Source: a virus
DNA: 64,000 nt
Direction: 5' to 3' (one strand)
IMG/VR virus record: IMGVR_UViG_3300005337_000441
Location: 151,769 to 215,768 of that record
The notes under the pieces were generated by a model. The model did not search any database. It had not been told where the DNA came from and saw only the letters and a list, made by a program, of their open reading frames with translations. Numbering within the stretch: the first letter of the stretch is position 1; every line of letters starts with the position of its first letter. Positions 1-63,430 of the stretch are shown here, in pieces. Position numbers and translations under genes: made by a program.

Positions 1-632
1 TCGTTTTCGGTGATCATGTCGAGATACGGCACGAGCTTGCCCTCGAACACCAGCGCCATGTAGTGCAGCCAGATGTAGAAGAGGTACAGGATCGGGTCCC
101 CCCGCGTGTTGCGGAAAGACGCATCAACGGAGAACGCTTCGAAGTTGCGCGCCAGACCGTCCACCATCGACTGCGTTTCGTTGAACAGACCCGGTGTCGA
201 CGTGTACACCGGCACCGTCACATCGGGCCATCCGGAGATGGAGTTGATGTTGTTGGTGAGCACCGTGATGAACGGCGACATGTCGTCCACCACCGGACAG
301 TCACGCGGTGAGACTTTCGTGTTGTTGAACTTGTAGCCCGTTTGCTGCCGCGGATCGAGCATGCAGCGCACGTAGTTTTGAATCGACAGCGGCTCGTTGT
401 TCAGGAGCGCTGCCATTTGTCGGATGTTTCGAATGTTGTCCGTCTGCATGTTGAGTTGCGGACGAACGAAAAAAGTGAACCCTGCGAGGTCCTTGTTCGA
501 AGGTACAGCCGACGGAACCTGACCATGGTTGATGCCATAGAGGTTGTCGCCTATAGCCTTATCTAATGACCCGATCGGTGTCGACTGAAAATAGTCGTCC
601 AACGAATGGGGAACAATCACATTGACCGCCAT
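1..632 (-). CDS. Partial leftward gene, putative virion protein
   Basis: Only the first 210 codons are in the window; the frame stays open to base 1. The start is ATG at 632-630 (MAVNVIVPHSLDD), with GAGGG about eight bases upstream on the minus strand. The visible part has no signal peptide or membrane segment and reads as a soluble protein rich in Asn, Pro and aromatic residues. It starts only 34 bases from the rightward gene at 667, so the two form a divergent pair at the left end of the virion module. A structural role is inferred from position; I do not recognise the family. Confidence 0.8.
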   Translation of the reverse strand, partial: MAVNVIVPHSLDDYFQSTPIGSLDKAIGDNLYGINHGQVPSAVPSNKDLAGFTFFVRPQLNMQTDNIRNIRQMAALLNNEPLSIQNYVRCMLDPRQQTGYKFNNTKVSPRDCPVVDDMSPFITVLTNNINSISGWPDVTVPVYTSTPGLFNETQSMVDGLARNFEAFSVDASFRNTRGDPILYLFYIWLHYMALVFEGKLVPYLDMITEN

Positions 633-666
633 CTAGAACCCTCATTTGAAAAGCTCGGAGCCAAAT

Positions 667-1746
667 ATGGACTTGGGATTCATCCAAACGGCACTTCAGC
701 ATGTCGCGAATGTCGTGAACCGTGTCCGCACGGTGACGAACTACTACCAGGACAAATCGCTTGTCGAAGCGACCAAATTGACCCGCGTGGAGCCTTTGAC
801 CATAGTATCGAAGGACCTCCTGAATTTCGACATCCTTCCCGATGTCAACAGCTCGCTGCTGAACATGTTCACGGCGTACTGGCTTCAGGCGGTCGCGGTG
901 CTCACCAAGGTCAAGGACGTCGAAGTCATCAAGATCCTCGACAAGCTCAACCCCGATCGTGACTCCACCGGCTGGCTGCTCTCCGAGTCGCTGAGCCAGG
1001 AATCGATCGCGACGATGGTCGCCAGCAACTACAAGCACTCGCTGCCCATCCGTGGCGTGGCGATGGAAGCCGACGACACCAAGAGCCTGCTGCAAGACGT
1101 CTCCAACCTGTCGGTGGGCAAGCTCATCAACGTGAAGATCTCCACCGACGGCGCCGACGGCAAGCCGGTGGACGTGTCCTTCCCGGTGAACATCCGTCTG
1201 ATGGCCTCTGTCGTGCCCGTGGGCACCATCCGTGGCCTGCTGGCCAAGACGACTGCGGACCTGTCCATCGTCGAGCGTTACCACGCCTGGCGCGGTGGCC
1301 GCATCGAGTTCATCCGTGACCTCATCTTCTGCCAGGATCTGATCCAGGAACAGAAGAAGAACGCCATCGAAGACGAGACCGGCACCGCTGAAGAGATCCA
1401 GCGTCGCGTGGCCAACGCCAAGAAGTTCGGCCTGCTCACCCACAACCCCTCGCTCGTCTCGGCCTCCAACCTCTTCGTGCTGAGCGAAGAAGCGGCCCGT
1501 GAAGTCGAAGGCAAGCTCGGCGGCAAGCTGTCCAACCCGCGCATCCGTGACAAGGCGTTCGAGAACACCTACGCCATGATCATCTGCGTGGTCGACCGCG
1601 AATGGGAGCGTGTCTACTTCTACGCCCGTGGCGTCTCCGCTGCCATGGACCTCTCCTTCAAGGAGATCAAGAAGGCCGCTGCCGACAAGGGCATGAACAT
1701 CGCCGACGTCCTGAAGGCTTTCCAGCTGGGCGCTCCGGCGTTCTAA
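667..1746 (+). CDS. Putative virion structural protein, 359 aa
   Basis: A soluble protein starting MDLGFIQTALQHV. An in-frame TTG lies at 646, but the ATG at 667 follows GGAG at a good distance and is preferred. No enzyme motif or membrane segment is visible. Codon use is strongly biased to C/G-ending codons, as in the capsid gene at 39276, which suggests high expression. It heads a tight run (667-4643) with 305, 204 and 439 aa proteins. A structural or assembly role is inferred from context and codon bias; the family is not recognised. Confidence 0.85.
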   Translation: MDLGFIQTALQHVANVVNRVRTVTNYYQDKSLVEATKLTRVEPLTIVSKDLLNFDILPDVNSSLLNMFTAYWLQAVAVLTKVKDVEVIKILDKLNPDRDSTGWLLSESLSQESIATMVASNYKHSLPIRGVAMEADDTKSLLQDVSNLSVGKLINVKISTDGADGKPVDVSFPVNIRLMASVVPVGTIRGLLAKTTADLSIVERYHAWRGGRIEFIRDLIFCQDLIQEQKKNAIEDETGTAEEIQRRVANAKKFGLLTHNPSLVSASNLFVLSEEAAREVEGKLGGKLSNPRIRDKAFENTYAMIICVVDREWERVYFYARGVSAAMDLSFKEIKKAAADKGMNIADVLKAFQLGAPAF

Positions 1747-1780
1747 GCCACCGACGCAACAAGTTACCCAAGGAGTTCTG

Positions 1781-2698
1781 ATGAAAATCTTTTCGTACGT
1801 GGCGTCGCTGCTTCCCCGCCTGACCAAGGATCAGGTTCTGGAAGATCTGCGCCACACCGGCGAGGAGCTGGTGTCGGTCGCCCAGCCGACCTATCGCAAC
1901 GGCGCGGATTTCTTCCGTACCAGCAAGTTCGAGTCCGACAAGGTCCGTGACCTGCAAGACTCGTTCAACGACAAGTTCGACCGCTCCGGCGGTCCGAAGC
2001 AATCCACGTTCCTCGGCGAGATCAACGCTCGTCTGCCGTTCCTGGTGGAAAACACCGAGTACGTCACCAAGCAGTGCGAACTGCTGTTCGAACGCGACAT
2101 CGTCTCCGATGGCCTCACTGCCAAGAAGGCGCTGCTGATGCGTGCCGCCGAGCACCTGTCGTTCCTGTCGCGTCTGTCGCTGGACGTGCTGAACTACGTC
2201 TACACGTTCGAGGCTCTGGCCGCCGGCGTGGAAGTCAGCGATGACTCGGGCCTGTCGCCGGCTGAAGCTGGCCACGTCGAGCGCAACATCGGCGTGTTCG
2301 CCAGCCTGCTGGGCGACTACGGCGTGCCCAACAAGGACTTCGAGAAGATCCTGCTGGCCATCCCCGAGGTGGTCGTGAGCAGCCGCTCCGAAGCCCAGCT
2401 GGCCTCGGTCTTCAAGGAACGTGATCTCGACCCCTTCAAGGGCCAGTACGTCCAAGGCTTCACGGGCAACCCGATCTACCACCTGCGCCTCCTGGTCGCA
2501 CAGTGGCAGGCGTCGCGCTACAAGGCCAACAAGGACAAGAAGAAGATGCTGGAACTGCGTCTGCTTCATCTGGAACTCCTGAAGGAGAAGAAGAACGATC
2601 CGAAGATCGAACAGGAAATCGACTACGTGCGTGGCCGTGTGGCTTCGCTGGATCGCTACCTGCGTGAAGTCGAGGAATCGGTCGAGGCGGAGGTCTGA
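1781..2698 (+). CDS. Putative virion structural protein, 305 aa
   Basis: It starts MKIFSYVASLLPRL after AAGGAG. The protein looks all-alpha and charged. The last 70 residues (about 230-305) are rich in Lys, Glu, Leu and Arg, with heptad-like spacing (KKKMLELRLLHLELLKEKK), which predicts a coiled coil. It follows the 359 aa gene by 34 bases and precedes the next by 5, so it is probably co-transcribed with both. No catalytic motif is seen. Its role is unknown, with virion assembly the most likely from position. Confidence 0.85.
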   Translation: MKIFSYVASLLPRLTKDQVLEDLRHTGEELVSVAQPTYRNGADFFRTSKFESDKVRDLQDSFNDKFDRSGGPKQSTFLGEINARLPFLVENTEYVTKQCELLFERDIVSDGLTAKKALLMRAAEHLSFLSRLSLDVLNYVYTFEALAAGVEVSDDSGLSPAEAGHVERNIGVFASLLGDYGVPNKDFEKILLAIPEVVVSSRSEAQLASVFKERDLDPFKGQYVQGFTGNPIYHLRLLVAQWQASRYKANKDKKKMLELRLLHLELLKEKKNDPKIEQEIDYVRGRVASLDRYLREVEESVEAEV

Positions 2699-2703
2699 GC
2701 ACC

Positions 2704-3318
2704 ATGTCGCAACCCTACCCCGTCATGCAGTCGGGGTTCGTTGCGGTCAGTGTGGAGGGCCTCACTCTCCCCGATCCCATCGAACCGACGATTCGCCAAT
2801 CCGTCATCTTCAAGGAGTTCAAGCCGCCGCTCTTGAACTACTACTACGCGCCGACCGTGACCGAGCTGTTCAACAGCTGGAGCGCCAACCCGAAGGTCAT
2901 GCGGGAGTTCGACTTCCGTGAACGTGTCCTCAAGGCTGCGTTCAAGTCCTTCGGCACCAAGGAGTTCCGCGCGTGGCTGAAACTTCAGCTCGACGCTGAC
3001 GCCCTGTCGGCCATGCACAAGAAGTTCCTGCTGGAAACGTGCGACTTCATCCTCAACGGGACGGAGCGTCGTGTGCAGAGCGTGCAGTGGATCAACCTGC
3101 TCGAAGCAGGTCCCGTCACGGCCTCCATCCGTCTGTCGCCTTCTGAGTTCCTTGCGAACAAGGACGGCGTGCGCGAATACGTGAACGTACCGGAGAAGAT
3201 GACCGCGCTCATCACGCAGTGGGTGACGCATCGTGAAGGCTTCGAGGACCTCCTCGTGAGTCTGTACGTCATCTTCGGTGCTCGTTCCCGTCAAAACGAC
3301 GTCGTCGACGTGGCGTAA
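2704..3318 (+). CDS. Conserved-looking hypothetical protein, 204 aa
   Basis: It starts MSQPYPVMQSGFVAVSVEG five bases after the previous stop, in the same virion operon. The middle (about residues 45-150) looks like a compact alpha/beta domain with no Cys pairs, P-loop or membrane segment. It ends only five bases before the next start. A tail or head accessory role is inferred from the neighbours; there is no recognisable family signature. Confidence 0.83.
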   Translation: MSQPYPVMQSGFVAVSVEGLTLPDPIEPTIRQSVIFKEFKPPLLNYYYAPTVTELFNSWSANPKVMREFDFRERVLKAAFKSFGTKEFRAWLKLQLDADALSAMHKKFLLETCDFILNGTERRVQSVQWINLLEAGPVTASIRLSPSEFLANKDGVREYVNVPEKMTALITQWVTHREGFEDLLVSLYVIFGARSRQNDVVDVA

Positions 3319-3323
3319 ACACC

Positions 3324-4643
3324 ATGCGCTTTCGTCGTCGTGCGATTGCCCAGGAGGAGCAGCTCGAAATCGAGAAGCTCCACGAGCAAGAGCTAGCAGC
3401 GAACAAGGACAGCGAGTTCGATGTTCTCTACGATCAAACGCAGAAGAACATCGCCGCTGACCAACAAACCAACGAGAAGAACGACTCCACGGACGAGCCA
3501 CCTGCCGGTGGTGACGATGAAGCCTTGGGTGAGGAGGAGGCCACGCCTCCTGAGGAAGCTCCCGCGCTGGAAGAGATTCGTAATCTCACCTATGCGTCGG
3601 AAGACTTCGCCACCTTCACGCACGACTTCAAAGAAACGTCCATGCTCCTGGGAACCCTGGGTATCACCTTCAGCCTCGCCGTCATCTCCAACCTCTTCAA
3701 GGGGGTGGTTTATGCGTTCTGCAAGATCGCACGACTGGTGTACGTCTCGACGTGGGCTCTGAAGAAGTACCTGGAGCGTCGAGAAGGCTCGTTCGAAGGA
3801 ATCAAGGCTTCTGTTGCAGATCTTCGCAAGACCCTGGATGTCGTGAAGGAAAGCGGCGATGCCTCGGACTTGAGTGAACAGAAGTACACACAAACGAAGA
3901 TCATCAACACGTTGAAGATCGGCAATAGTGTGGCATTCTCCGAGAACGTCGAAGTCCTTCGACGCTTCGTGGGAGATACTGTGCAACGTCTGTCCGCTCA
4001 AATTGAGCATGAGACGTCTGCCGTTCAACACATCGTGAGTGCGAGCGCGCGAGATGCAACCACGTTGCCCGCCAAGCTCATGAACATCGACGCTCATGGC
4101 GTCGGACTCACCGCGGGTGTGGTCGAGGGGTACGCGCCTGCCAGCGAGTACGTCCAGGCTTATCACAGCGCTCATGTGTTGCCTTCTGACGTTGTGCTCA
4201 TCGCCGCATTTCCGCGTGATGATCTGGAAGACTTCGATGCTGTCACGAAGGCCTATAACGATTCGTCGATGGTTCTCGGTTTCAATATGGCTTCATTCAC
4301 CGAAGTCGAAACCGTGGATTATATGACAATCGATGACCTCAGTGGTTTCCTCGATAAGCTAGATCAGCTCTGCGACGTTTGCATTGCGCACCAAGCAGTG
4401 TACACGAAGATCAAAAACAATCGACTCGTCCTGAAGAACTCCCTGAAGAACTTCTTCCACGGGCTCAGAAACAAAACTCACAAAGTCTCGTTGAAAAACA
4501 GTTTTGTGGAATACGTCTACCTCAAGACCATGTTCGTCGACAAGGTGTACTTGATGTCAATGATTGATCTGCATGACTATGCAACGAAGGTGCTCACCGC
4601 GGGCACTCGCATGGCCAAAGACACGATCAGTCGCATGACTTAA
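3324..4643 (+). CDS. Internal-head-protein-like, 439 aa, membrane-active segment
   Basis: The N-terminus MRFRRRAIAQEEQ matches the next gene (MRFRQKAIAALEE). An acidic, disordered stretch follows (about 30-85, rich in Glu, Asp and Pro), then a strongly hydrophobic stretch (about 106-128) ending in a basic amphipathic helix. The rest is helical. At 439 aa it matches the length of the three probable internal head proteins at 4770, 8366 and 13617, although it lacks a clear copy of their shared central motif. In phiKZ-like phages such proteins are packaged in the head and trimmed by a protease. The assignment here is inference; a membrane-associated virion protein is an alternative. Confidence 0.75.
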   Translation: MRFRRRAIAQEEQLEIEKLHEQELAANKDSEFDVLYDQTQKNIAADQQTNEKNDSTDEPPAGGDDEALGEEEATPPEEAPALEEIRNLTYASEDFATFTHDFKETSMLLGTLGITFSLAVISNLFKGVVYAFCKIARLVYVSTWALKKYLERREGSFEGIKASVADLRKTLDVVKESGDASDLSEQKYTQTKIINTLKIGNSVAFSENVEVLRRFVGDTVQRLSAQIEHETSAVQHIVSASARDATTLPAKLMNIDAHGVGLTAGVVEGYAPASEYVQAYHSAHVLPSDVVLIAAFPRDDLEDFDAVTKAYNDSSMVLGFNMASFTEVETVDYMTIDDLSGFLDKLDQLCDVCIAHQAVYTKIKNNRLVLKNSLKNFFHGLRNKTHKVSLKNSFVEYVYLKTMFVDKVYLMSMIDLHDYATKVLTAGTRMAKDTISRMT

Positions 4644-4729
4644 AGCTGCTGCTTGGACGACACGATTATCTTCATCGAGATTGAGTCGTCTGAGCAATAG
4701 GAGTGTTCTGGCACTCTCAAACTCAGAAT

Positions 4730-4741
4730 CCAAACGTTTGG
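4730..4741. promoter_or_regulatory. 12-bp perfect palindrome upstream of 4770 gene
   Basis: CCAAACGTTTGG reads the same on both strands. It lies 29 bases before the ATG of the 446 aa internal-head-like gene, in a 126-base gap that also holds a weak hairpin (GAGTG/CACTC, 4701-4716). It could be an operator or an RNA feature of the leader; function is not shown. Confidence 0.3.
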
Positions 4742-4769
4742 TTCAACTTTCCCCTTTTCTGGAGCACAT

Positions 4770-6110
4770 ATGCGCTTTCGTCAAAAAGCAATCGCAGCCC
4801 TCGAAGAAGCCGAAGTCGCAGCGGGTCTGACCCCCGAAGCGGTCGAGCCGGCTGAAGTGGTGCCTGCCACGGCCCCCGAAGTCGAAGCCGACGCCGGTGA
4901 GCTGGTGGAGAACGTCGCCGAGGTCGAAGAACTCGTCGCCGCCACCGAAGAAACCGAAAACGACGTGGAAACCCTGGGCGAGTACCAGGAGATCATGCAG
5001 GAGTCCGTGGACGCCGGCACCGGTCTGGAACCCGTCGCTGCCAACATCGCCGATGTCGCCATCGAGTCGATCAGCGCTCGCCTGGGCTTCACCTCGGCCC
5101 AGCGCACCATGCCCGCCATGGAATCCTTCGGCCAGACCGGCACCCGCCTGTCCAGCACCAAGGTGGCCCTGGAAGCCCTGAACGACAAGATCAAGCGCGG
5201 CCTGGACGCCGTCCTGAACTTCCTGAAGATGGTCTGGGACAAGATCAGCGGCTTCATCGCCGGCCTGCTCAAGAGTCGCGCCACGCTGCAGAAGCACATC
5301 GAGAGCCTGCTGGCTCGCGCCACCGAAGCCAAGGGCAAGGACGTCAAGCCCAAGGAAGCCAAGCTCAAGGGTGGCTACGCCGCCGCCGTGAGCGTGGACG
5401 GCAAGGCCGACAAGGGCACCGCCCTCGAAGTGCTGGCCGACTCGCGCAACCTGCTGGGCCTGATCGGCAAGATCAGCCCCGTGCTGAACGGCACGATGGG
5501 TTCGTCGAGCGACTCGCTGAACGCCTTCGTCAAGAAGGTCGCTGACGCCGCCCACAGCGGTGTCTCCAGCGCCTTCAGCGGCAGCAAGGTCGCCGTCGAG
5601 AAGGGCGCCGAAGGCGTCGACTACTACGGCCACCTGGTCAACACCAAGGCCATCGGCGTGAAGACGGGCGAGAAGGACGGCGTGACCGAACTGGTCGTCG
5701 ACGTCAACGCCACCGGCAAGACGGCTGCTGAAGCCGACGCACTCGACGCCGCCGGCGCCGAAGAAGTGCTGAAGAAGGCCCTGGACCTGGTGAAGAGCCT
5801 GGTGCAAGCCGACAAGGCCGAGAAGGACCTGAAGTCGGCCGCCAAGCACGCCATGGACAGCGTCGCTGGTCTGGCCAAGGCCATGGACAAGATGGCCACG
5901 GAAGACGGCAAGGTCGGTCCGGAAGTCTCGGCTTCCATCAAGGCCATGCGCGAAGTCAGCGGCACCATCTCCAAGCTGTCGCTGCAGCTGCCCACCCTGG
6001 TCTTCCAGGGCGCCAAGGCCGCTGCCGACTACGCCAGCGCCTCGCTGGGCAACCTGAAGGGCGAGGAAGCTGCTGCTGCCCCGGCCGAAGGTGGCGCCGC
6101 CGCTGCCTGA
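4770..6110 (+). CDS. Probable internal head protein, 446 aa
   Basis: This very Ala/Lys/Glu-rich helical protein has extreme C/G-ending codon bias, suggesting abundance in the virion. Residues 1-70 form an acidic leader behind the MRFRQKAIA tag. Residues about 98-166 carry a segment shared with the genes at 8366 and 13617: SIxxRLG, a short linker, a Glu-Ser/His-Phe motif, VALEAL, then a Trp-containing amphipathic helix. In phiKZ-like phages, internal head proteins with cleavable acidic leaders are packaged with the DNA; the match here is by architecture and context. A strong UUCG-loop terminator follows at 6137. Confidence 0.8.
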   Translation: MRFRQKAIAALEEAEVAAGLTPEAVEPAEVVPATAPEVEADAGELVENVAEVEELVAATEETENDVETLGEYQEIMQESVDAGTGLEPVAANIADVAIESISARLGFTSAQRTMPAMESFGQTGTRLSSTKVALEALNDKIKRGLDAVLNFLKMVWDKISGFIAGLLKSRATLQKHIESLLARATEAKGKDVKPKEAKLKGGYAAAVSVDGKADKGTALEVLADSRNLLGLIGKISPVLNGTMGSSSDSLNAFVKKVADAAHSGVSSAFSGSKVAVEKGAEGVDYYGHLVNTKAIGVKTGEKDGVTELVVDVNATGKTAAEADALDAAGAEEVLKKALDLVKSLVQADKAEKDLKSAAKHAMDSVAGLAKAMDKMATEDGKVGPEVSASIKAMREVSGTISKLSLQLPTLVFQGAKAAADYASASLGNLKGEEAAAAPAEGGAAAA

Positions 6111-6136
6111 TCGACTTCGGTCGTGAAGCACTGAGA

Positions 6137-6167
6137 GGGACGGGGCCTTCGGGCTCCGTCCCTTTTT
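6137..6167 (+). terminator. Rho-independent terminator, UUCG loop
   Basis: An 11-bp stem (137-147 with 152-162, one G-U pair) closes a TTCG loop, followed by TTTTT and TGTCCGTC, a variant of the recurrent post-hairpin motif. It ends the 4770 gene. Confidence 0.95.
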
Positions 6168-6181
6168 GTCCGTCTACTGAA

Positions 6182-6194
6182 GTATCCTATGATG
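6182..6194 (+). promoter_or_regulatory. Class B promoter-like element (ATCCTATGATG)
   Basis: GTATCCTATGATG lies between the terminator and the 546 aa gene. Very similar blocks sit at 8333 and 9765, each just before a virion gene. No -35 partner is visible; assignment as a promoter rests on recurrence and position. Confidence 0.5.
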
Positions 6195-6209
6195 AACTGA
6201 AGGACGGCT

Positions 6210-7850
6210 ATGCCCCACATTTCTGTAACTCTCCCTGAATCGGAGCAGGCGATTGGTCGCCCGGTGATCTTCGGGATCATTGATCAAATTCAGGACGTGT
6301 GCAAGATCGACAAGAGTGCGAAGATCTACTTTCCCGGTCCGACGGGCAAGATGCAGACGTCCGGCAGTGACATTGACGGTCAAGAACAAGACCGCTTTGC
6401 CACATTCGAAAACCAACGCATTGTCTTCATCGACGTGGATGAGGACTTCGACCGCAACACGCTGGGCTCGACGTCCGTGACCCGTGAAGAGTACGCGCCC
6501 GTCTTCGAGGATGCTGCTCTTGGCGTGCAGGTGTGTCCTGTCTACGCCACGAGTCAAGTGAGCATCCAGGTGCGCTACCGCACGCCTTCGGAGACCGAAG
6601 CCCAGCGCTGGCGTGACGACATGCGCATGCGCATCAGTCAGATGCGTGACACCAACCTGCACAAAGTCAAGTACCACTACAGTCTGCCGCAAACGGTCTG
6701 TCAGGTGATCGAGCACGTCTACGACAAGCGTGAAGCCGTGGCCGGTTACGGTGAAGACCTGGGTGTGTACTTCAAGGGACATGCCACCGAGCGGCTCACG
6801 TTGATCACGGACCAGGTTGGCAAGAACGTGCAGTTTGTGGTTGGTGAGAACCAAGGTCGCATCATCGGGCAGTTTGAGCTCGATGCGATTCCCCAGAAAC
6901 CCACGCGGGATGCCACACACGGTGTCTGGGAAGTCTCTTTCACCTACAAGTTCAACTACGAGCGCCCCGTGGGCGTGACCATGCACTACCCCGTGCAGGT
7001 CCACAACCAGCTGTTGGATCCAATGTTCGTGGCCTTCACGGACAAGCCGATCGATCCGTCGAGCTACCCCAAGAGCTTCTCCAAGTCGTTGTCTGCTCTG
7101 AATGCATTCGAGATGGACTCGATGATGAACGCAGCGGGCAATCCCGATCCGTTCATTCGGATGCCGCGCTACGATGACTTCAAGATCCCTCAGGTGCCTC
7201 AGGGCACGGGCACAGCCTGGCTGGCTCTGATCGAAGTGGGTGAGGACAAGAAGGAGCTCTTCAACCTGGCTGAGATGGGTGACATTGTCATGGACGCCGA
7301 CGTGATGAAGTTCATCCGTGAAGTCGAATGGCAGTACATCACCAAGCAGTTCAAGAGCATTCTGCACTTGACGCTGTATCGCAACGGCAACCAGCTCTCC
7401 ACTGGTCATCTGCAATGCGACGCTCAACTCAACGTCACCTCACGTGACGAGTTGGACTTGCGCAATCAGCACCGGGTGCGCATGGGTATCTACGTGGACC
7501 TGACACTTCTGCCCAAGGAAGCGATGGAGCGGCTGTGTCAATACCCCAAGGCCTTTGTGAAAATCATGCGGGCTATGAACTATCTGCTGAGGATCCATCC
7601 GGACTTCGGCAGCCTGGGCGACAAGAACCGCATCACGCCGCTGGAGTTCAGTGACGTCTACGCAGTCCTCACGGGCTACGGTTACAACAACGGTGTGCGG
7701 GGTCGCAATCCCGCCATGTTCAACGGCAGGCCTGATCAGTACCCGCTCTTCAAGAGCATCGATCCCCGGGTGCGGCAGGCTTATCAAGAGACGATGATCC
7801 GTCTGAAGACTTTGATGTCCGGCTACATCGTAGCCTATCAGGGCAATTGA
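6210..7850 (+). CDS. Putative tail/baseplate structural protein, 546 aa
   Basis: It starts MPHISVTLPESEQAIG. The protein looks beta-rich in its first two thirds, with many aromatic and Thr/Val strands, and helical near the end. It has no membrane segment or enzyme motif. It stands alone between a terminator plus promoter-like element and another promoter (7891), so it is a single-gene transcription unit among virion genes. A structural tail or baseplate role is inferred from size, composition and neighbours; I cannot name the family. Confidence 0.85.
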   Translation: MPHISVTLPESEQAIGRPVIFGIIDQIQDVCKIDKSAKIYFPGPTGKMQTSGSDIDGQEQDRFATFENQRIVFIDVDEDFDRNTLGSTSVTREEYAPVFEDAALGVQVCPVYATSQVSIQVRYRTPSETEAQRWRDDMRMRISQMRDTNLHKVKYHYSLPQTVCQVIEHVYDKREAVAGYGEDLGVYFKGHATERLTLITDQVGKNVQFVVGENQGRIIGQFELDAIPQKPTRDATHGVWEVSFTYKFNYERPVGVTMHYPVQVHNQLLDPMFVAFTDKPIDPSSYPKSFSKSLSALNAFEMDSMMNAAGNPDPFIRMPRYDDFKIPQVPQGTGTAWLALIEVGEDKKELFNLAEMGDIVMDADVMKFIREVEWQYITKQFKSILHLTLYRNGNQLSTGHLQCDAQLNVTSRDELDLRNQHRVRMGIYVDLTLLPKEAMERLCQYPKAFVKIMRAMNYLLRIHPDFGSLGDKNRITPLEFSDVYAVLTGYGYNNGVRGRNPAMFNGRPDQYPLFKSIDPRVRQAYQETMIRLKTLMSGYIVAYQGN

Positions 7851-16547: not shown

Positions 16548-17114
16548 ATGGCTCAGTTGCGCATCGAACGCGTAAATTCGTTGCCGGCGACCTTGGAACC
16601 GTCAACCCTGTACTACGTGAAGTCCTCAGACGCTGGTCTGGTGGATCTGTACGTGACAGGCAACGATGCCTCCGAAGTCCGACACCTCATCACGAAGGCT
16701 GAAATCCAGTCCTTGATCGCTTCGGCGGTCTCGGGTATGGCTGGTGCCATCGTGGTGGTGCAGGACATCGAGGAGCGCGACGCTCTGACCTTGACGGCCT
16801 CGACTATGGTCTTGGTCCTCGATGCCACGAGCGACGAGACGGTCCAAACAGGTTCGGCACTCTACGTCTGGGACGACTCCACGGGAACGTGGTACAAGGT
16901 CGCCGAGTACGAGTCTCTCGATCTCAGCCTCGACTGGGGCTCCATCCAGGGTGGACCTGCGTCCAGCCCGTCTGCAATTGACGACGCCGTGGCGAAGTCG
17001 CATACACACAGCAACAAACCCATCCTCGACGGCCTCGGTGTCGACGAAGAAGGGTCCCTGACTTACAACAGCGCAGTGATCGCCAACGTGAAGGCAGCCC
17101 CTTCGGACTGGTGA
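16548..17114 (+). CDS. Tail fibre-like protein, 188 aa
   Basis: The N-terminal 50 residues (RIERVNSLPATLEPSTLYYVK and on) are clearly homologous to those of the next two genes, suggesting a common attachment or folding domain. A middle segment (about 65-125) resembles the short beta domains common in fibres. The protein ends in SDW, echoing SEW and LDW at the ends of the products of 17241 and 20684. It is short compared with its 351 and 641 aa paralogs, so it may be an adaptor or reduced fibre. Confidence 0.8.
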   Translation: MAQLRIERVNSLPATLEPSTLYYVKSSDAGLVDLYVTGNDASEVRHLITKAEIQSLIASAVSGMAGAIVVVQDIEERDALTLTASTMVLVLDATSDETVQTGSALYVWDDSTGTWYKVAEYESLDLSLDWGSIQGGPASSPSAIDDAVAKSHTHSNKPILDGLGVDEEGSLTYNSAVIANVKAAPSDW

Positions 17115-17240
17115 CCTCTGCTTCCGAATGAAGAATTTGGTGCGTTTCAACGTTGACGCATCTGTCTTCAGCCCTTCTACGGTGCACGCCGTGGAAGATC
17201 TCCCCTCGTGCCTCCTCTTCTCTTCACTGGAGCCTTTCTC

Positions 17241-18296
17241 ATGGCAACTTTGCTGATCAAACGCGTCCTGGCGCTGCCCTCGACCCTGGACGCTTCCACG
17301 ATGTACATCGTGAAGTCCTCGGACGCGAACTTCGCCGAGCTGTACTTCACGAACGAAGACGGCTCCGCCGTCCGTCGCATCCCCACCACCGACGACACGA
17401 CCGCGCTCATCAACTCGATGCTGCCGGAAACGATCGACCGCCTGACCAGCGCCCGCCACATCACCATCGAAGGCGATGCGAGCTGGGACGTCATCTTCGA
17501 CGGCTCTTCCGACGTCACCGCCAACCTCGTGCTGGCCGACACGGGCATCGTCGCCGGCGAATACGTCGTCACGACCGTCGACTCCAAGGGTCGCACCACC
17601 GGTGGCCGCAACCTGAATGCCTCCGACGTCCCGAACCTGCCCGGTTCGAAGATCGTCAGCGACATCACCGTCAACACCTCCGGCAATGCCGCCACGGCCG
17701 ATGAAGCCGACAAGCTGTCCACCGCCCGCCTGATCAACGGCGTCGCCTTCGACGGCACGTCCGACATCACCATCGACGCCGTCGACTCGACCCCCCGCAT
17801 CGCGGTGAGCGAGAAGGGTGCTCCGCTGGGTGTCGCCACGCTGGACGCCGATGGCCTGGTTCCCGCCAGCCAACTGCCTTCCTACGTCGATGACGTCATC
17901 GAAGTCGCCAACTTCGCTGCCCTGCCGGCGACCGGCGAAGCCAGCAAGATCTACATCACGCTGGACAACAACAAGACCTACCGCTGGGGTGGCTCGGTCT
18001 ACGTCGAGATCCCGTCGGGCGTCGGCACCGCTGACAGCGCCCTGAAGCTGACGACCGCTCGCTCCATCACCGTCACCGGTGACGCCAGCTGGACGGTCTC
18101 CTTCGACGGCTCCGCCAACGTCTCGGCCGCTCTGACGCTGGCCAACAGCGGCGTGACCGCCGGCGAATACCCGGTCGTGACCGTGGACGCCAAGGGCCGC
18201 GTGACCGATGGCCGCGCTCTGGCTCTGGGTGACCTGCCTTCCGGCATCCACGCTGCGACGGCCGACTCGCTGACGCTCGGCGCTTCCGAGTGGTAA
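17241..18296 (+). CDS. Tail fibre protein, 351 aa
   Basis: ATG at 17241 (MATLLIKRVLALPSTL) follows GGAG; the frame upstream to 17208 lacks a better start. The N-terminal domain is shared with the genes at 16548 and 18395. Ala/Thr/Asp/Val-rich blocks follow (TARxINGVAFDGTSDIT and similar), the low-complexity beta text typical of fibre shafts. Residues about 205-260 are nearly identical to part of the 641 aa fibre, including a 29-base identical DNA run. It ends in SEW and is followed by a hairpin terminator. Confidence 0.88.
   Translation: MATLLIKRVLALPSTLDASTMYIVKSSDANFAELYFTNEDGSAVRRIPTTDDTTALINSMLPETIDRLTSARHITIEGDASWDVIFDGSSDVTANLVLADTGIVAGEYVVTTVDSKGRTTGGRNLNASDVPNLPGSKIVSDITVNTSGNAATADEADKLSTARLINGVAFDGTSDITIDAVDSTPRIAVSEKGAPLGVATLDADGLVPASQLPSYVDDVIEVANFAALPATGEASKIYITLDNNKTYRWGGSVYVEIPSGVGTADSALKLTTARSITVTGDASWTVSFDGSANVSAALTLANSGVTAGEYPVVTVDAKGRVTDGRALALGDLPSGIHAATADSLTLGASEW
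17868..17896 (+). repeat. 29-bp direct repeat, copy 1, fibre genes
   Basis: An exact 29-base match to 19247-19275, coding for SQLPSYVDD in both fibres. The surrounding sequence is also similar but not identical, consistent with duplication and possible gene conversion between the two fibre genes. Confidence 0.9.
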
Positions 18297-20683: not shown

Positions 20684-21304
20684 ATGGCAAAAATCAGTGC
20701 ATATCCTCTTCGCCCCAATCTGACGGGGACGGAGGAAGTAGCTGTCGCCCTCAACGGGCAGAACTTCAAGTTCCAGCTCAGCCAACTCAAGACCCTGTTC
20801 ACGAAAGCGGACGTGGGTCTGGGCAACGTCGACAACACCGCCGACGCCGACAAGCCGGTCAGTGGCCCTCAAGCCCTGGCTCTTGCGGACAAGGCGGACA
20901 AGGTCCACGGGCACAAAATCGCAGACGTCGAGTTCTTGGGCGATGCCCTGAACAGCAAGTCCGATGTCGGTCACACGCACAGCAGTGCGGAGGTCGATGG
21001 TCTGGACCTGGCGCTCGCTGGCAAGTCCAATGTGGGTCACAACCACAACAGCGCTGACATCGCGGGCTTGGATCAAGCTCTTGCTGGCAAGGCTGATTCG
21101 GTCCATACGCACTCGCAAACCCAGATCGATGGTCTCACGGACACTCTGACGGGTCTGCAAACGCAGCTCACTCAGAAAGCCGGCGTGATTCACGTGCATA
21201 GCACCGGTGACATCAACGGTCTGCAAGCTTTCGTCGAACAAGTCGTGACTGACATGGGCGGCGCAGGTGGCGGTGACGTCGCAGTGGGCGCTCTGGACTG
21301 GTGA
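20684..21304 (+). CDS. Tail fibre with His-x-His repeats, 206 aa
   Basis: It has a strong ribosome site (GAAAGGAGATAG). After a short N-terminal domain there is an ADVGLGNVDNTADADKP motif, a common phage-fibre sequence. About four repeats follow, of roughly 25-30 residues, with HGH, HTH, HNH, HTH and HVH pairs (VGHTHSSAEVDGLDLALAGKS and relatives). In known trimeric fibres, HxH motifs bind metal ions along the axis. The protein ends in LDW, like two fibre neighbours ending in SDW and SEW. A hairpin terminator follows. Confidence 0.88.
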   Translation: MAKISAYPLRPNLTGTEEVAVALNGQNFKFQLSQLKTLFTKADVGLGNVDNTADADKPVSGPQALALADKADKVHGHKIADVEFLGDALNSKSDVGHTHSSAEVDGLDLALAGKSNVGHNHNSADIAGLDQALAGKADSVHTHSQTQIDGLTDTLTGLQTQLTQKAGVIHVHSTGDINGLQAFVEQVVTDMGGAGGGDVAVGALDW

Positions 21305-48691: not shown

Positions 48692-48700
48692 ACATATACT
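48692..48700 (+). promoter_or_regulatory. Class A promoter-like element
   Basis: ACATATACT, 84 bases before the 103 aa gene. The leader between them is long and holds no obvious gene. Confidence 0.6.
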
Positions 48701-60040: not shown

Positions 60041-60073
60041 CACATCCGCAGGCCGGTCAAGCCTGCGGATGTG
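60041..60073 (+). terminator. 13-bp hairpin terminator
   Basis: A perfect 13-bp stem (60041-60053 with 60061-60073) and 7-base loop, then TGTCATTTTCTTTTT. It ends the 632 aa gene. Confidence 0.92.
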
Positions 60074-60100
60074 TGTCATTTTCTTTTTCAAGGATACACA

Positions 60101-60511
60101 GTGGCTACACAGGCCGAACTCTTAGAGCAGATGCGACCACTGTTGGTCGAGCTCGCTGCCATCGCTGACGGTGACTACAACGTCAATGAACGCAACCTCT
60201 GGAAACGTTGGTTCGGCAAAGAGCGCGGCGGTTGGCTGTACGTGGAGTCCAATGAAGATCGCGGCAAGATCGATATTGCGTCCGCATCCGATCGCACGAC
60301 GCACAATCCTCACGCCGGCAAGTACTACTCGGTCTCGTTCACCAAACACGGATCACTGGAGTACTTCATGGAGGCCATCCTGACCCTGCGGATCAAGTGG
60401 GATCACCACGGCAGGAGCTCCGTCGAAGATCTCCAACAGGCTTTCACGTTCGTGACTTGGTTGCACAAGAAACTCGTGATCGAGAAATACCCTCGCGCCA
60501 ACGATCAATAA
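60101..60511 (+). CDS. Hypothetical protein, 136 aa, GTG start
   Basis: The frame is open from 60071, but that start lies inside the terminator hairpin. GTG at 60101 follows AAGGA and gives MATQAELLEQMRPLLVE. The protein is alpha/beta with a basic C-terminus; WKRWFGKERGGWLYVES is a conserved-looking stretch. It is the first gene of a two-gene unit. Function unknown. Confidence 0.75.
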   Translation: MATQAELLEQMRPLLVELAAIADGDYNVNERNLWKRWFGKERGGWLYVESNEDRGKIDIASASDRTTHNPHAGKYYSVSFTKHGSLEYFMEAILTLRIKWDHHGRSSVEDLQQAFTFVTWLHKKLVIEKYPRANDQ

Positions 60512-61544: not shown

Positions 61545-61555
61545 ACCAGGCCAAG

Positions 61556-61588
61556 AGCAGGTGGGGAAACCCCCTGCTTTATGCCGTC
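61556..61588 (+). terminator. Hairpin terminator, GAAA loop, plus TATGCCGTC
   Basis: A 9-bp stem with one bulged T (61556-61565 with 61570-61578) and GAAA loop, then TATGCCGTC at 61580-61588. Confidence 0.88.
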
Positions 61589-61623
61589 ACCGTAATTTAA
61601 TTCGATTGATGTCCTGATGGTTT

Positions 61624-61638: not shown

Positions 61639-61668
61639 GACTACAATTCTTCATGCAGGTTGAGGGAT

Positions 61669-61872
61669 ATGGGACATCGTCGAAACCACCACGAGGGGGT
61701 CGATGACATGGAGCAACATGGCATCAATCCACAGTCCAGTCAAAGCCGCCATGGACCTGCCCCGTCTAAACGGGAGCTGCGGCAAATGTGCATTGCGAGA
61801 GATCGCAACAAAGCACGCACCACTTATCCCGAACGGGAACAGGAGCAAAGCGTGAGCGCGATGTTCCGGTAG
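61669..61872 (+). CDS. Small basic hypothetical protein, 67 aa
   Basis: Start uncertain: ATG at 61669 (MGHRRNHHEGVDDMEQH) or ATG at 61708 behind GAGGGGG, which would give 54 residues. The product is rich in Arg, His, Gln and Ser, ends VSAMFR, and looks disordered. It is followed after ten bases by the 211 aa gene. A DNA- or RNA-contacting peptide is possible; function unknown. Confidence 0.55.
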   Translation: MGHRRNHHEGVDDMEQHGINPQSSQSRHGPAPSKRELRQMCIARDRNKARTTYPEREQEQSVSAMFR

Positions 61873-61882
61873 AAAGGAATTG

Positions 61883-62518
61883 ATGGATTCCATTGACAAA
61901 AGCAATCAGGCTGATGTCTCATATGAGATGTTCGCGGAAACAATGATCCGCAAGGAGCCTGAATTTCCGAGCGTGCCTGACGCTGAGAAACTCACTGCAT
62001 TCAACGCACGTCAACTGGCGCTTGCGGATCCTGACTTCATGACGCAGATCGCCGCAGACCGGGAACTCGCCGCCCGTCGCTTCGACGACGCCGTACCCTT
62101 CGCAAGTGAGGTGATGGAGAAGTTGCGCAGCATCGCCAAGGAACACGATCTCATCATCGTGACGCCCAGCGCCAACAGCCGCTACAAGACCAGCTTCTTG
62201 CGCTTCGGTCAGAACGCGGGCAAGTCGGCGGCGGATGACCTGGTCTGGATCTCGTTGGAGCAAACTGGCCTGCTGGAGAAAGCAGTGATGAAGCTGGACA
62301 AGTTGAAGCCTCGCACTGAGGAAACCGACAACACCACTCGCGTCTTCGTCACTCACCGGCAGTTCGGCAAAGCCTTTGCGCAGGAGCAATATCGGCGTGG
62401 CGGCTTCGCTGACATCCCGATGGATCGCGACATGCGTTCTCGTTCTGAGCGACGCGGCCACCAACCCAAGAAGCAACTCAAGGGTCAGGACTATCTGAGC
62501 CTGCGCAAGGGGTACTGA
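61883..62518 (+). CDS. YLxLR-tailed protein 1, 211 aa
   Basis: ATG at 61883 (MDSIDKSNQADVSYEMF) after AAAGGAA. The protein is helical in its first half and has a flexible, Arg/Lys-rich C-terminal third (MRSRSERRGHQPKKQL). It ends in GQDYLSLRKGY. The next two genes end in QNYLNLRKGRWNS and QNYLTLRNKRW, so three adjacent products share a C-terminal YLxLR motif. No enzyme signature is visible. Confidence 0.82.
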   Translation: MDSIDKSNQADVSYEMFAETMIRKEPEFPSVPDAEKLTAFNARQLALADPDFMTQIAADRELAARRFDDAVPFASEVMEKLRSIAKEHDLIIVTPSANSRYKTSFLRFGQNAGKSAADDLVWISLEQTGLLEKAVMKLDKLKPRTEETDNTTRVFVTHRQFGKAFAQEQYRRGGFADIPMDRDMRSRSERRGHQPKKQLKGQDYLSLRKGY

Positions 62519-62519
62519 C

Positions 62520-62840
62520 ATGCAGCCGCATGATCCGTTCTTCGATGGTCCTCGGGGGATGTTCCTGAAAACCAAACCTCACGTGGTCGAAGTCAAACTG
62601 TTTCCCGGTCAAACGGAATACAGGGACGGTAACCTTCAGGTGAGCATCCAGCCGAGCACAGCGATGACCACCATCACGATCTGCTACAAGACCGGTTCAG
62701 TTTCCGTGGATCCTCCGACCACGGTCAACTTGGTCTTCACCAGAACCGCCGACTACACGGGAGCCAACAAGCTTGCCCTCAAGCCTCGGCCTCCCAAGCA
62801 AAACTACCTCAACCTGCGCAAAGGAAGGTGGAACTCATGA
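62520..62840 (+). CDS. YLxLR-tailed protein 2, 106 aa
   Basis: It starts MQPHDPFFDGPRGMFLK, with AAGGGG inside the end of the previous gene. The body (about 15-85) is a small beta-rich domain. A Pro/Lys linker leads to the tail KQNYLNLRKGRWNS. It overlaps the next gene by ATGA. Unrelated in the body to its neighbours, it shares only the tail. Confidence 0.8.
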   Translation: MQPHDPFFDGPRGMFLKTKPHVVEVKLFPGQTEYRDGNLQVSIQPSTAMTTITICYKTGSVSVDPPTTVNLVFTRTADYTGANKLALKPRPPKQNYLNLRKGRWNS

Positions 62841-63367
62841 ACATCAACGACATCCTCAAGGATGGCGGCATCCCCAAAGGCAAGAAGATGGTCATCGTCG
62901 GTGGTGCGGGTCCTTGGATCGGTGCTCTGGCAGCGATCGCCGGTGGCGCCAAATCCGGCGACAAGGTGATCCTGGACGTCGAGTCCGATCCCCCGACGTT
63001 GGACGGCGTGGAGATTCAGCTCAACGCCACCTTCGACCGCCAGAAGTACCGCGAGTACCAACTCGATGCTGTCAAGTTCATCAAAGACAAGGTGTTGATC
63101 GTTGATGACGGCAATCCCTTCAAGGCGCTGGAACATCACTCCAATCTGATCGAGGCTCACCTCAACGGCAAGCGCGATCCCGAAATGCAAGCCTTCTTCA
63201 AGGACTGGGACCGCGCTGCGCAAGCAGACGGGTTCAACCTCACCGAGGCAACTCCGGAAGAGCGCCCCGAAGACCTGCCCAAGCGCAACGTCAACGGCAA
63301 GCGCATGGCCAACCAACCTCTCGATCGTCGTCAGAACTACCTCACCTTGCGTAACAAACGCTGGTAA
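62837..63367 (+). CDS. YLxLR-tailed protein 3, 176 aa
   Basis: ATG at 62837 (MNINDILKDGGIPKGKK) overlaps the previous stop; GTG at 62828 is less likely. Residues 11-30 (GGIPKGKKMVIVGGAGPWIG) look like a RecA/KaiC-type P-loop lead but lack the GKT, so ATP binding is doubtful. An acidic and helical body follows. The C-terminal 40 residues are basic and end in RRQNYLTLRNKRW. A terminator follows. Confidence 0.82.
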   Translation: MNINDILKDGGIPKGKKMVIVGGAGPWIGALAAIAGGAKSGDKVILDVESDPPTLDGVEIQLNATFDRQKYREYQLDAVKFIKDKVLIVDDGNPFKALEHHSNLIEAHLNGKRDPEMQAFFKDWDRAAQADGFNLTEATPEERPEDLPKRNVNGKRMANQPLDRRQNYLTLRNKRW

Positions 63368-63381
63368 ACACCCCGTCACAG

Positions 63382-63408
63382 GAGCGCTCCCCAAAAGGGA
63401 GCGCTCTT
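63382..63408 (+). terminator. Hairpin terminator
   Basis: A perfect 10-bp stem (63382-63391 with 63397-63406), 5-base loop, short TT, then a T-rich stretch at 63416-63427. Confidence 0.9.
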
Positions 63409-63430
63409 GTTACACTTTCTTTTTTTATGC

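Follow-up and report, generated by a model that had tools for sequence, protein, structure and literature searches.

In giant phages, orphan genes number in the hundreds and offer no hint of what they do. In the genome described here, three adjacent orphan genes encode proteins of dissimilar sequence that all end with the same short motif, which raises the question of what such a common ending does, and whether it is a feature of the proteins at all. The stretch of DNA analysed (the window, 64,000 nucleotides) is the final 64 kb of a virus record that is 215,768 bp long. This record encodes two features expected of the Chimalliviridae: a homologue of chimallin (ChmA; detected with 201phi2-1 gp105 as query, E 1.6e-23), and a phiKZ-type multisubunit non-virion RNA polymerase (phrog_2943, E 3.8e-133; closest relative in the Burkholderia phage FLC9, 38%) together with further phiKZ-like core genes, among them those for DnaB and for a major head protein of the phiKZ type. 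Since a chimallin homologue in a phiKZ-like phage indicates that the phage is probably nucleus-forming, we assign it to this group, with nucleus formation itself being a prediction from the gene content.

Three adjacent genes with a common ending

The genes p1 (61883..62518; 211 aa, ATG start), p2 (62520..62840; 106 aa) and p3 (62837..63367; 176 aa) follow each other on the + strand, and none of their products belongs to a known family. The junction of p1 and p2 is nearly abutting (TGACATG), and the stop of p2 overlaps the ATG of p3 as ATGA. An ORF of 70 aa before p1 (61660..61872, + strand), which lacks the tail, may be a further member of this operon. The three proteins terminate in QDYLSLRKGY (p1, ...RRGHQPKKQLKGQDYLSLRKGY), QNYLNLRKGRWNS (p2, ...RPPKQNYLNLRKGRWNS) and QNYLTLRNKRW (p3, ...PLDRRQNYLTLRNKRW), with the tail motifs QDYLSLR, QNYLNLR and QNYLTLR encoded at 62486..62506, 62799..62819 and 63332..63352, respectively, all on the + strand. 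In each case the tail is terminal and sits on a flexible basic stretch. The common YLxLR C-terminus that an earlier note had read from the sequence of this locus is thus confirmed, with refined coordinates.

Within the record, this ending is restricted to p1-p3: no other gene in the 215,768 bp carries it, and YLxLR was not found elsewhere, at any position, in the called proteins of the phage. At the DNA level, a degenerate pattern encoding Q[ND]YLxLR had exactly three hits across the window, and 100 shuffles gave no hit. When the last 14 residues of the 224 called genes were compared all-against-all and against 20 shuffled sets, the pairs p2-p3, p1-p2 and p1-p3 scored 47, 38 and 27, with shuffled maxima of 28-39; the p2-p3 score exceeds all 20 of the shuffled maxima and the p1-p2 score 19 of 20, and p1-p3 on its own lies within noise. 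The only pairs that outscored the tails belong to a set of long paralogues at record positions 43-6454.

Two further groups of similar endings were observed in the same genome. The proteins at record 43-6454 (L002, outside the window) are long, arranged in tandem and share the ending PGGTxxAGSAYVY; they are likely paralogous repeat proteins. In an apparent fibre region of the window, the endings APSDW (16548-17114), GASEW (17208-18296) and GALDW (20684-21304) form a trio that is possibly another common C-terminus.

Recurrence in a second chimallin-encoding phage

When 2.9 million viral contigs were scanned for exact matches to the pattern QNYLxLRKG, six were found, one of which is a true gene end; the other five were tiny chance ORFs, lay inside a frame or were broken by a stop. 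A second pattern, applied to the same contig collection, retrieved this gene again along with twelve chance ORFs, which leaves it as the sole end of a substantial gene among the 19 exact-match stretches obtained with both patterns. The gene is located on a contig of 271,654 bp (G048) and encodes 152 aa ending with QNYLNLRKGWNR (...GRKSKRKDTPAQQNYLNLRKGWNR). Its stop is overlapped by a second tagged gene, ending with QAYLQLRNRRGR (...RRLLSNQAYLQLRNRRGR). G048 is likewise phiKZ-like and chimallin-encoding; its chimallin is 31% identical to that of the p1-p3 phage (E 2e-58), and 73 of 224 genes match between the two phages, at 19-51% identity.

Searched with a tail model, about 95 phiKZ-like records, a large share of them partial, contained the tail in just two cases; of the 119 relatives that a scan of contigs had yielded, 39 were not kept. 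The search for C-terminal YLxLR across the phage and its relatives that the earlier note had proposed therefore leads to p1-p3, as the only cases in the record, plus the two genes of G048. All evidence on the tail comes from these five sequences in two metagenomic genomes, which are possibly incomplete, so that more tagged genes may be missing. A scan of bacterial genomes produced tiny ORFs only and hence no sign that the tail mimics a host protein ending. Weak tail-like matches in G052, G054 and G076 were rejected because they are not C-terminal tails. In G076, a phiKZ-like phage, RRQDYLSLR, which contains the motif of p1, occurs at L144 (G076:91340-91366) inside a conserved virion protein resembling 201phi2-1 gp162, probably by chance.

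Could the likeness of the tails as a whole be due to chance, or to convergence without function? The small number of known tails, five, and the p1-p3 pair, which does not rise above noise, would be compatible with such an explanation. However, composition predicts only 0.0003 endings of the type Q[NDA]YLxLR in the genome, and a blind scan found the tail again on adjacent genes of another chimallin-encoding phage. This recurrence already disfavours coincidence, which we regard as extremely improbable.

Common descent deserves more weight. The tagged genes could be ancient tandem duplicates, the bodies of which have diverged beyond recognition, leaving the tail as the last likeness, still under selection. 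Their adjacency in both phages agrees with this idea, and so does the gene p142 (60071..60511, + strand), a homologue of which adjoins the tail genes in G048. This homologue, which encodes 132 aa and immediately precedes the tagged genes, aligns with 21.9 bits (best of 2000 shuffles: 8.8) and is the only body-level homologue common to both clusters. The p142 family occurs in these two phages only among the 60 or so phiKZ-like records, and also in the Delftia phage PhiW-14 (gp138), where the tail is absent; its members lie at 60071-60511 of the window, at L142:3800-4309 in G048 and at L116:17840-18238 in PhiW-14. The p142 family marks a shared ancestry of the neighbourhood. The tagged proteins themselves argue against duplication: the five bodies have no sequence similarity among each other or across the phages, with body-to-body scores no better than those of shuffled sequence, and the lengths range from about 70 to 211 aa. 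We therefore consider tandem duplication rather unlikely, and the bodies of p1-p3 are indeed unrelated by this comparison, as had been stated before.

Further searches placed the tagged proteins in no family. No homologues of p1-p3 were detected in phage records; for p1 and p3, viral contigs and a set of 50 phiKZ-like relatives yielded none either, and searches with the tagged proteins and their neighbours against Pfam, PHROG and solved structures gave chance-level matches only. AlphaFold models computed without alignment in two runs (mean pLDDT 36 and 41) were unusable. By eye, p1 (AKEHDLIIVTPSANSR) and p3 (GGIPKGKKMVIVGGAGPWIG) resemble the second and the first half, respectively, of a degenerate RecA/DnaB-type ATPase; p1 has a weak PHROG match (phrog_19, E 0.046), and the assignment as ATPase halves was dropped, as this support is too weak.

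Constraint on the tail and its possible roles

The motif Q-x-Y-L-x-L-R is present in all five tails, with its Q, Y, L, L and R being invariant; the next two residues are usually [KN]-[GKR]. Across the ten tail pairs, codons for the same residue were identical in 27 of 61 cases, compared with 29.8 expected if codons were drawn independently from the codon usage of the p1-p3 phage. Synonymous codons are thus random while residues are invariant, which indicates that the constraint acts on the protein; the tail peptide must either be under purifying selection or have been reached by convergence.

The alternative is an effect at the DNA level, in which the tail codons, within a repeated gene-junction cassette, would mainly provide the following gene with its ribosome site. 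The earlier note had correctly recognized the overlap on which this idea is based: AAGGGG (62507..62512, + strand) encodes K-G of the p1 tail and is the probable Shine-Dalgarno sequence of p2, and AAAGGAAGG (62820..62828, + strand) encodes K-G-R of the p2 tail and is the probable Shine-Dalgarno sequence of p3. The K-G codons of the first tagged gene of G048 have the same double role. Yet, the codons for Q-x-Y-L-x-L-R lie upstream of the Shine-Dalgarno bases, so that the ribosome site accounts only for the K-G after the motif. Moreover, p3 retains the motif without a Shine-Dalgarno-like purine run and without a gene close downstream, also as noted before; a hairpin with a T-rich run stands there instead. 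With its synonymous sites randomised in addition, the motif is hardly a junction cassette. This explanation is already largely refuted and appears highly improbable, and ribosome-site spacing alone does not account for the conservation either. The protein-level likeness that the note had preferred holds, also in view of the tail pair in G048.

We consider it probable that the tail is a short C-terminal docking motif, which gathers the products of one operon on a common, putative partner. Unrelated small proteins of one operon carry Q-x-Y-L-x-L-R on a flexible basic linker; each tail would bind a partner common to all of them, in all likelihood encoded by the phage, and the operon products would thereby be assembled on a single scaffold or as a single complex. 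Binding by the tail, the identity of the target for all tails and its phage origin are what we infer. The occurrence of adjacent orphans with a common tag, and again in a distant chimallin-encoding phage, suggests that these proteins act jointly and offers a handle on their partner. What speaks against this reading is the restriction of the tail to two phages among the phiKZ-like records searched, which would imply that any partner interface is specific to both, or that the tail is a speciality of their lineage. Speculatively, the p142 family might supply the receptor or partner; because this family is also present in PhiW-14, which lacks the tail, it is only a lead.

Docking by short C-terminal peptides has precedents. 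In phage T4, gp43, gp55 and gp33 carry interchangeable hydrophobic C-terminal motifs for one partner, the clamp, and gp55 presents its conserved terminal motif on a flexible, divergent linker (PMC2988020). The tails of p1-p3 resemble these motifs in being short, C-terminal and attached to otherwise different proteins, for which we here propose common binding. They differ in character, being basic, whereas those of T4 are hydrophobic and acidic, and in their bearers, which are orphans, unlike the T4 core replication and transcription factors with their known partner. Clamp-binding motifs have the form QLxLF or QxxLxxFF; the tails fit neither in spacing nor in aromatic positions, and this reading was rejected. 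Encapsulin cargo proteins provide a second parallel, as unrelated proteins of one operon carry a common short tag, conserved over about 10 residues and mostly located at the C-terminus (PMC7355545). Short terminal peptides on unrelated proteins of one operon are found here as well, although with a different motif and without a recognizable encapsulin-like shell gene beside the tagged genes; in both phages, the neighbours had no family or gave chance-level matches, and no shell gene was recognized in the tagged operon. With basic tails and no shell gene recognized, membership in either the clamp-tail or the cargo-peptide class was discarded.

Both tail-bearing phages encode chimallin, and the tail is C-terminal and basic, which brings protein sorting to the phage nucleus into consideration. 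The tail could serve for import or dock its bearers to the shell, being recognized by PicA, chimallin or another shell protein. Like the phages with a PicA pathway, these two encode chimallin and would need to sort proteins, and sorting in nucleus-forming phages is selective and species-specific (PMC12908238). However, PicA-dependent import in chimalliviruses recognizes cargo by the surface of the folded protein rather than by a terminal signal, and no conserved import signal sequence has been found by bioinformatics (PMC11087766). In the p1-p3 phage, the RNA polymerase subunits and DnaB, relatives of which act inside the nucleus, lack the tail, as does chimallin, and nearly all phiKZ-like relatives searched are devoid of it. 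A general nuclear-import tag is therefore unlikely, and sorting at large, as one of the roles put forward in the earlier note, is not supported. A sorting or shell-docking function in any form seems unlikely to us, and somewhat more doubtful still is a linear targeting signal by which a dedicated receptor would bring a set of accessory proteins to the nucleus of the phage or to the nuclear shell. If the latter were true, nucleus-forming phages would have their first known short sequence signal for sorting.

The other role suggested at the outset, processing, fares worse. The prohead protease of phiKZ cuts at S/A/G-X-E, and the tails contain no Glu and hence no such site. A degradation or maturation signal for a phage or host protease would agree with the terminal position on flexible basic stretches, yet a cleaved tag would not need the strict Y-L-x-L-R register, and the tails are not similar to any C-terminal degron known to us. 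We regard a protease signal as very unlikely. Among docking, sorting and processing, docking fits best. Should the docking partner belong to the phage nucleus, it would open up the unsolved question of how nucleus-forming phages address their proteins.

Probable transcription signals around the operon

The p1-p3 operon is set apart from the preceding gene by a hairpin (core about 61554-61581) followed by TTTATGCCG (61545..61592, + strand; fold -23.9 kcal/mol), a signature that also trails other hairpins of the record. Hairpins rich in G+C with TTATGCCG immediately behind them occur repeatedly in intergenic positions (window 9735, 14966, 46317 and about 61577; record 103377); they probably represent the signature at which the phage polymerase terminates. 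At the other end, 3' of p3, a hairpin (63375-63410; fold -28.9 kcal/mol) and the subsequent T-rich run (together 63375..63430, + strand) probably constitute the operon terminator; this candidate is absent from the list of the consensus scanner.

The operon lacks the CACATATACT motif, which stands ahead of about ten other genes of the phage. The conserved motif YCACATATACT, located 8-121 bases ahead of genes and strongly enriched in intergenic DNA, has sites at 48693 and 54929 of the window and about eight more outside it (record 61007, 69829, 88588, 103410, 110517, 114991, 119959 and 139842); it is probably the early promoter of this phage.
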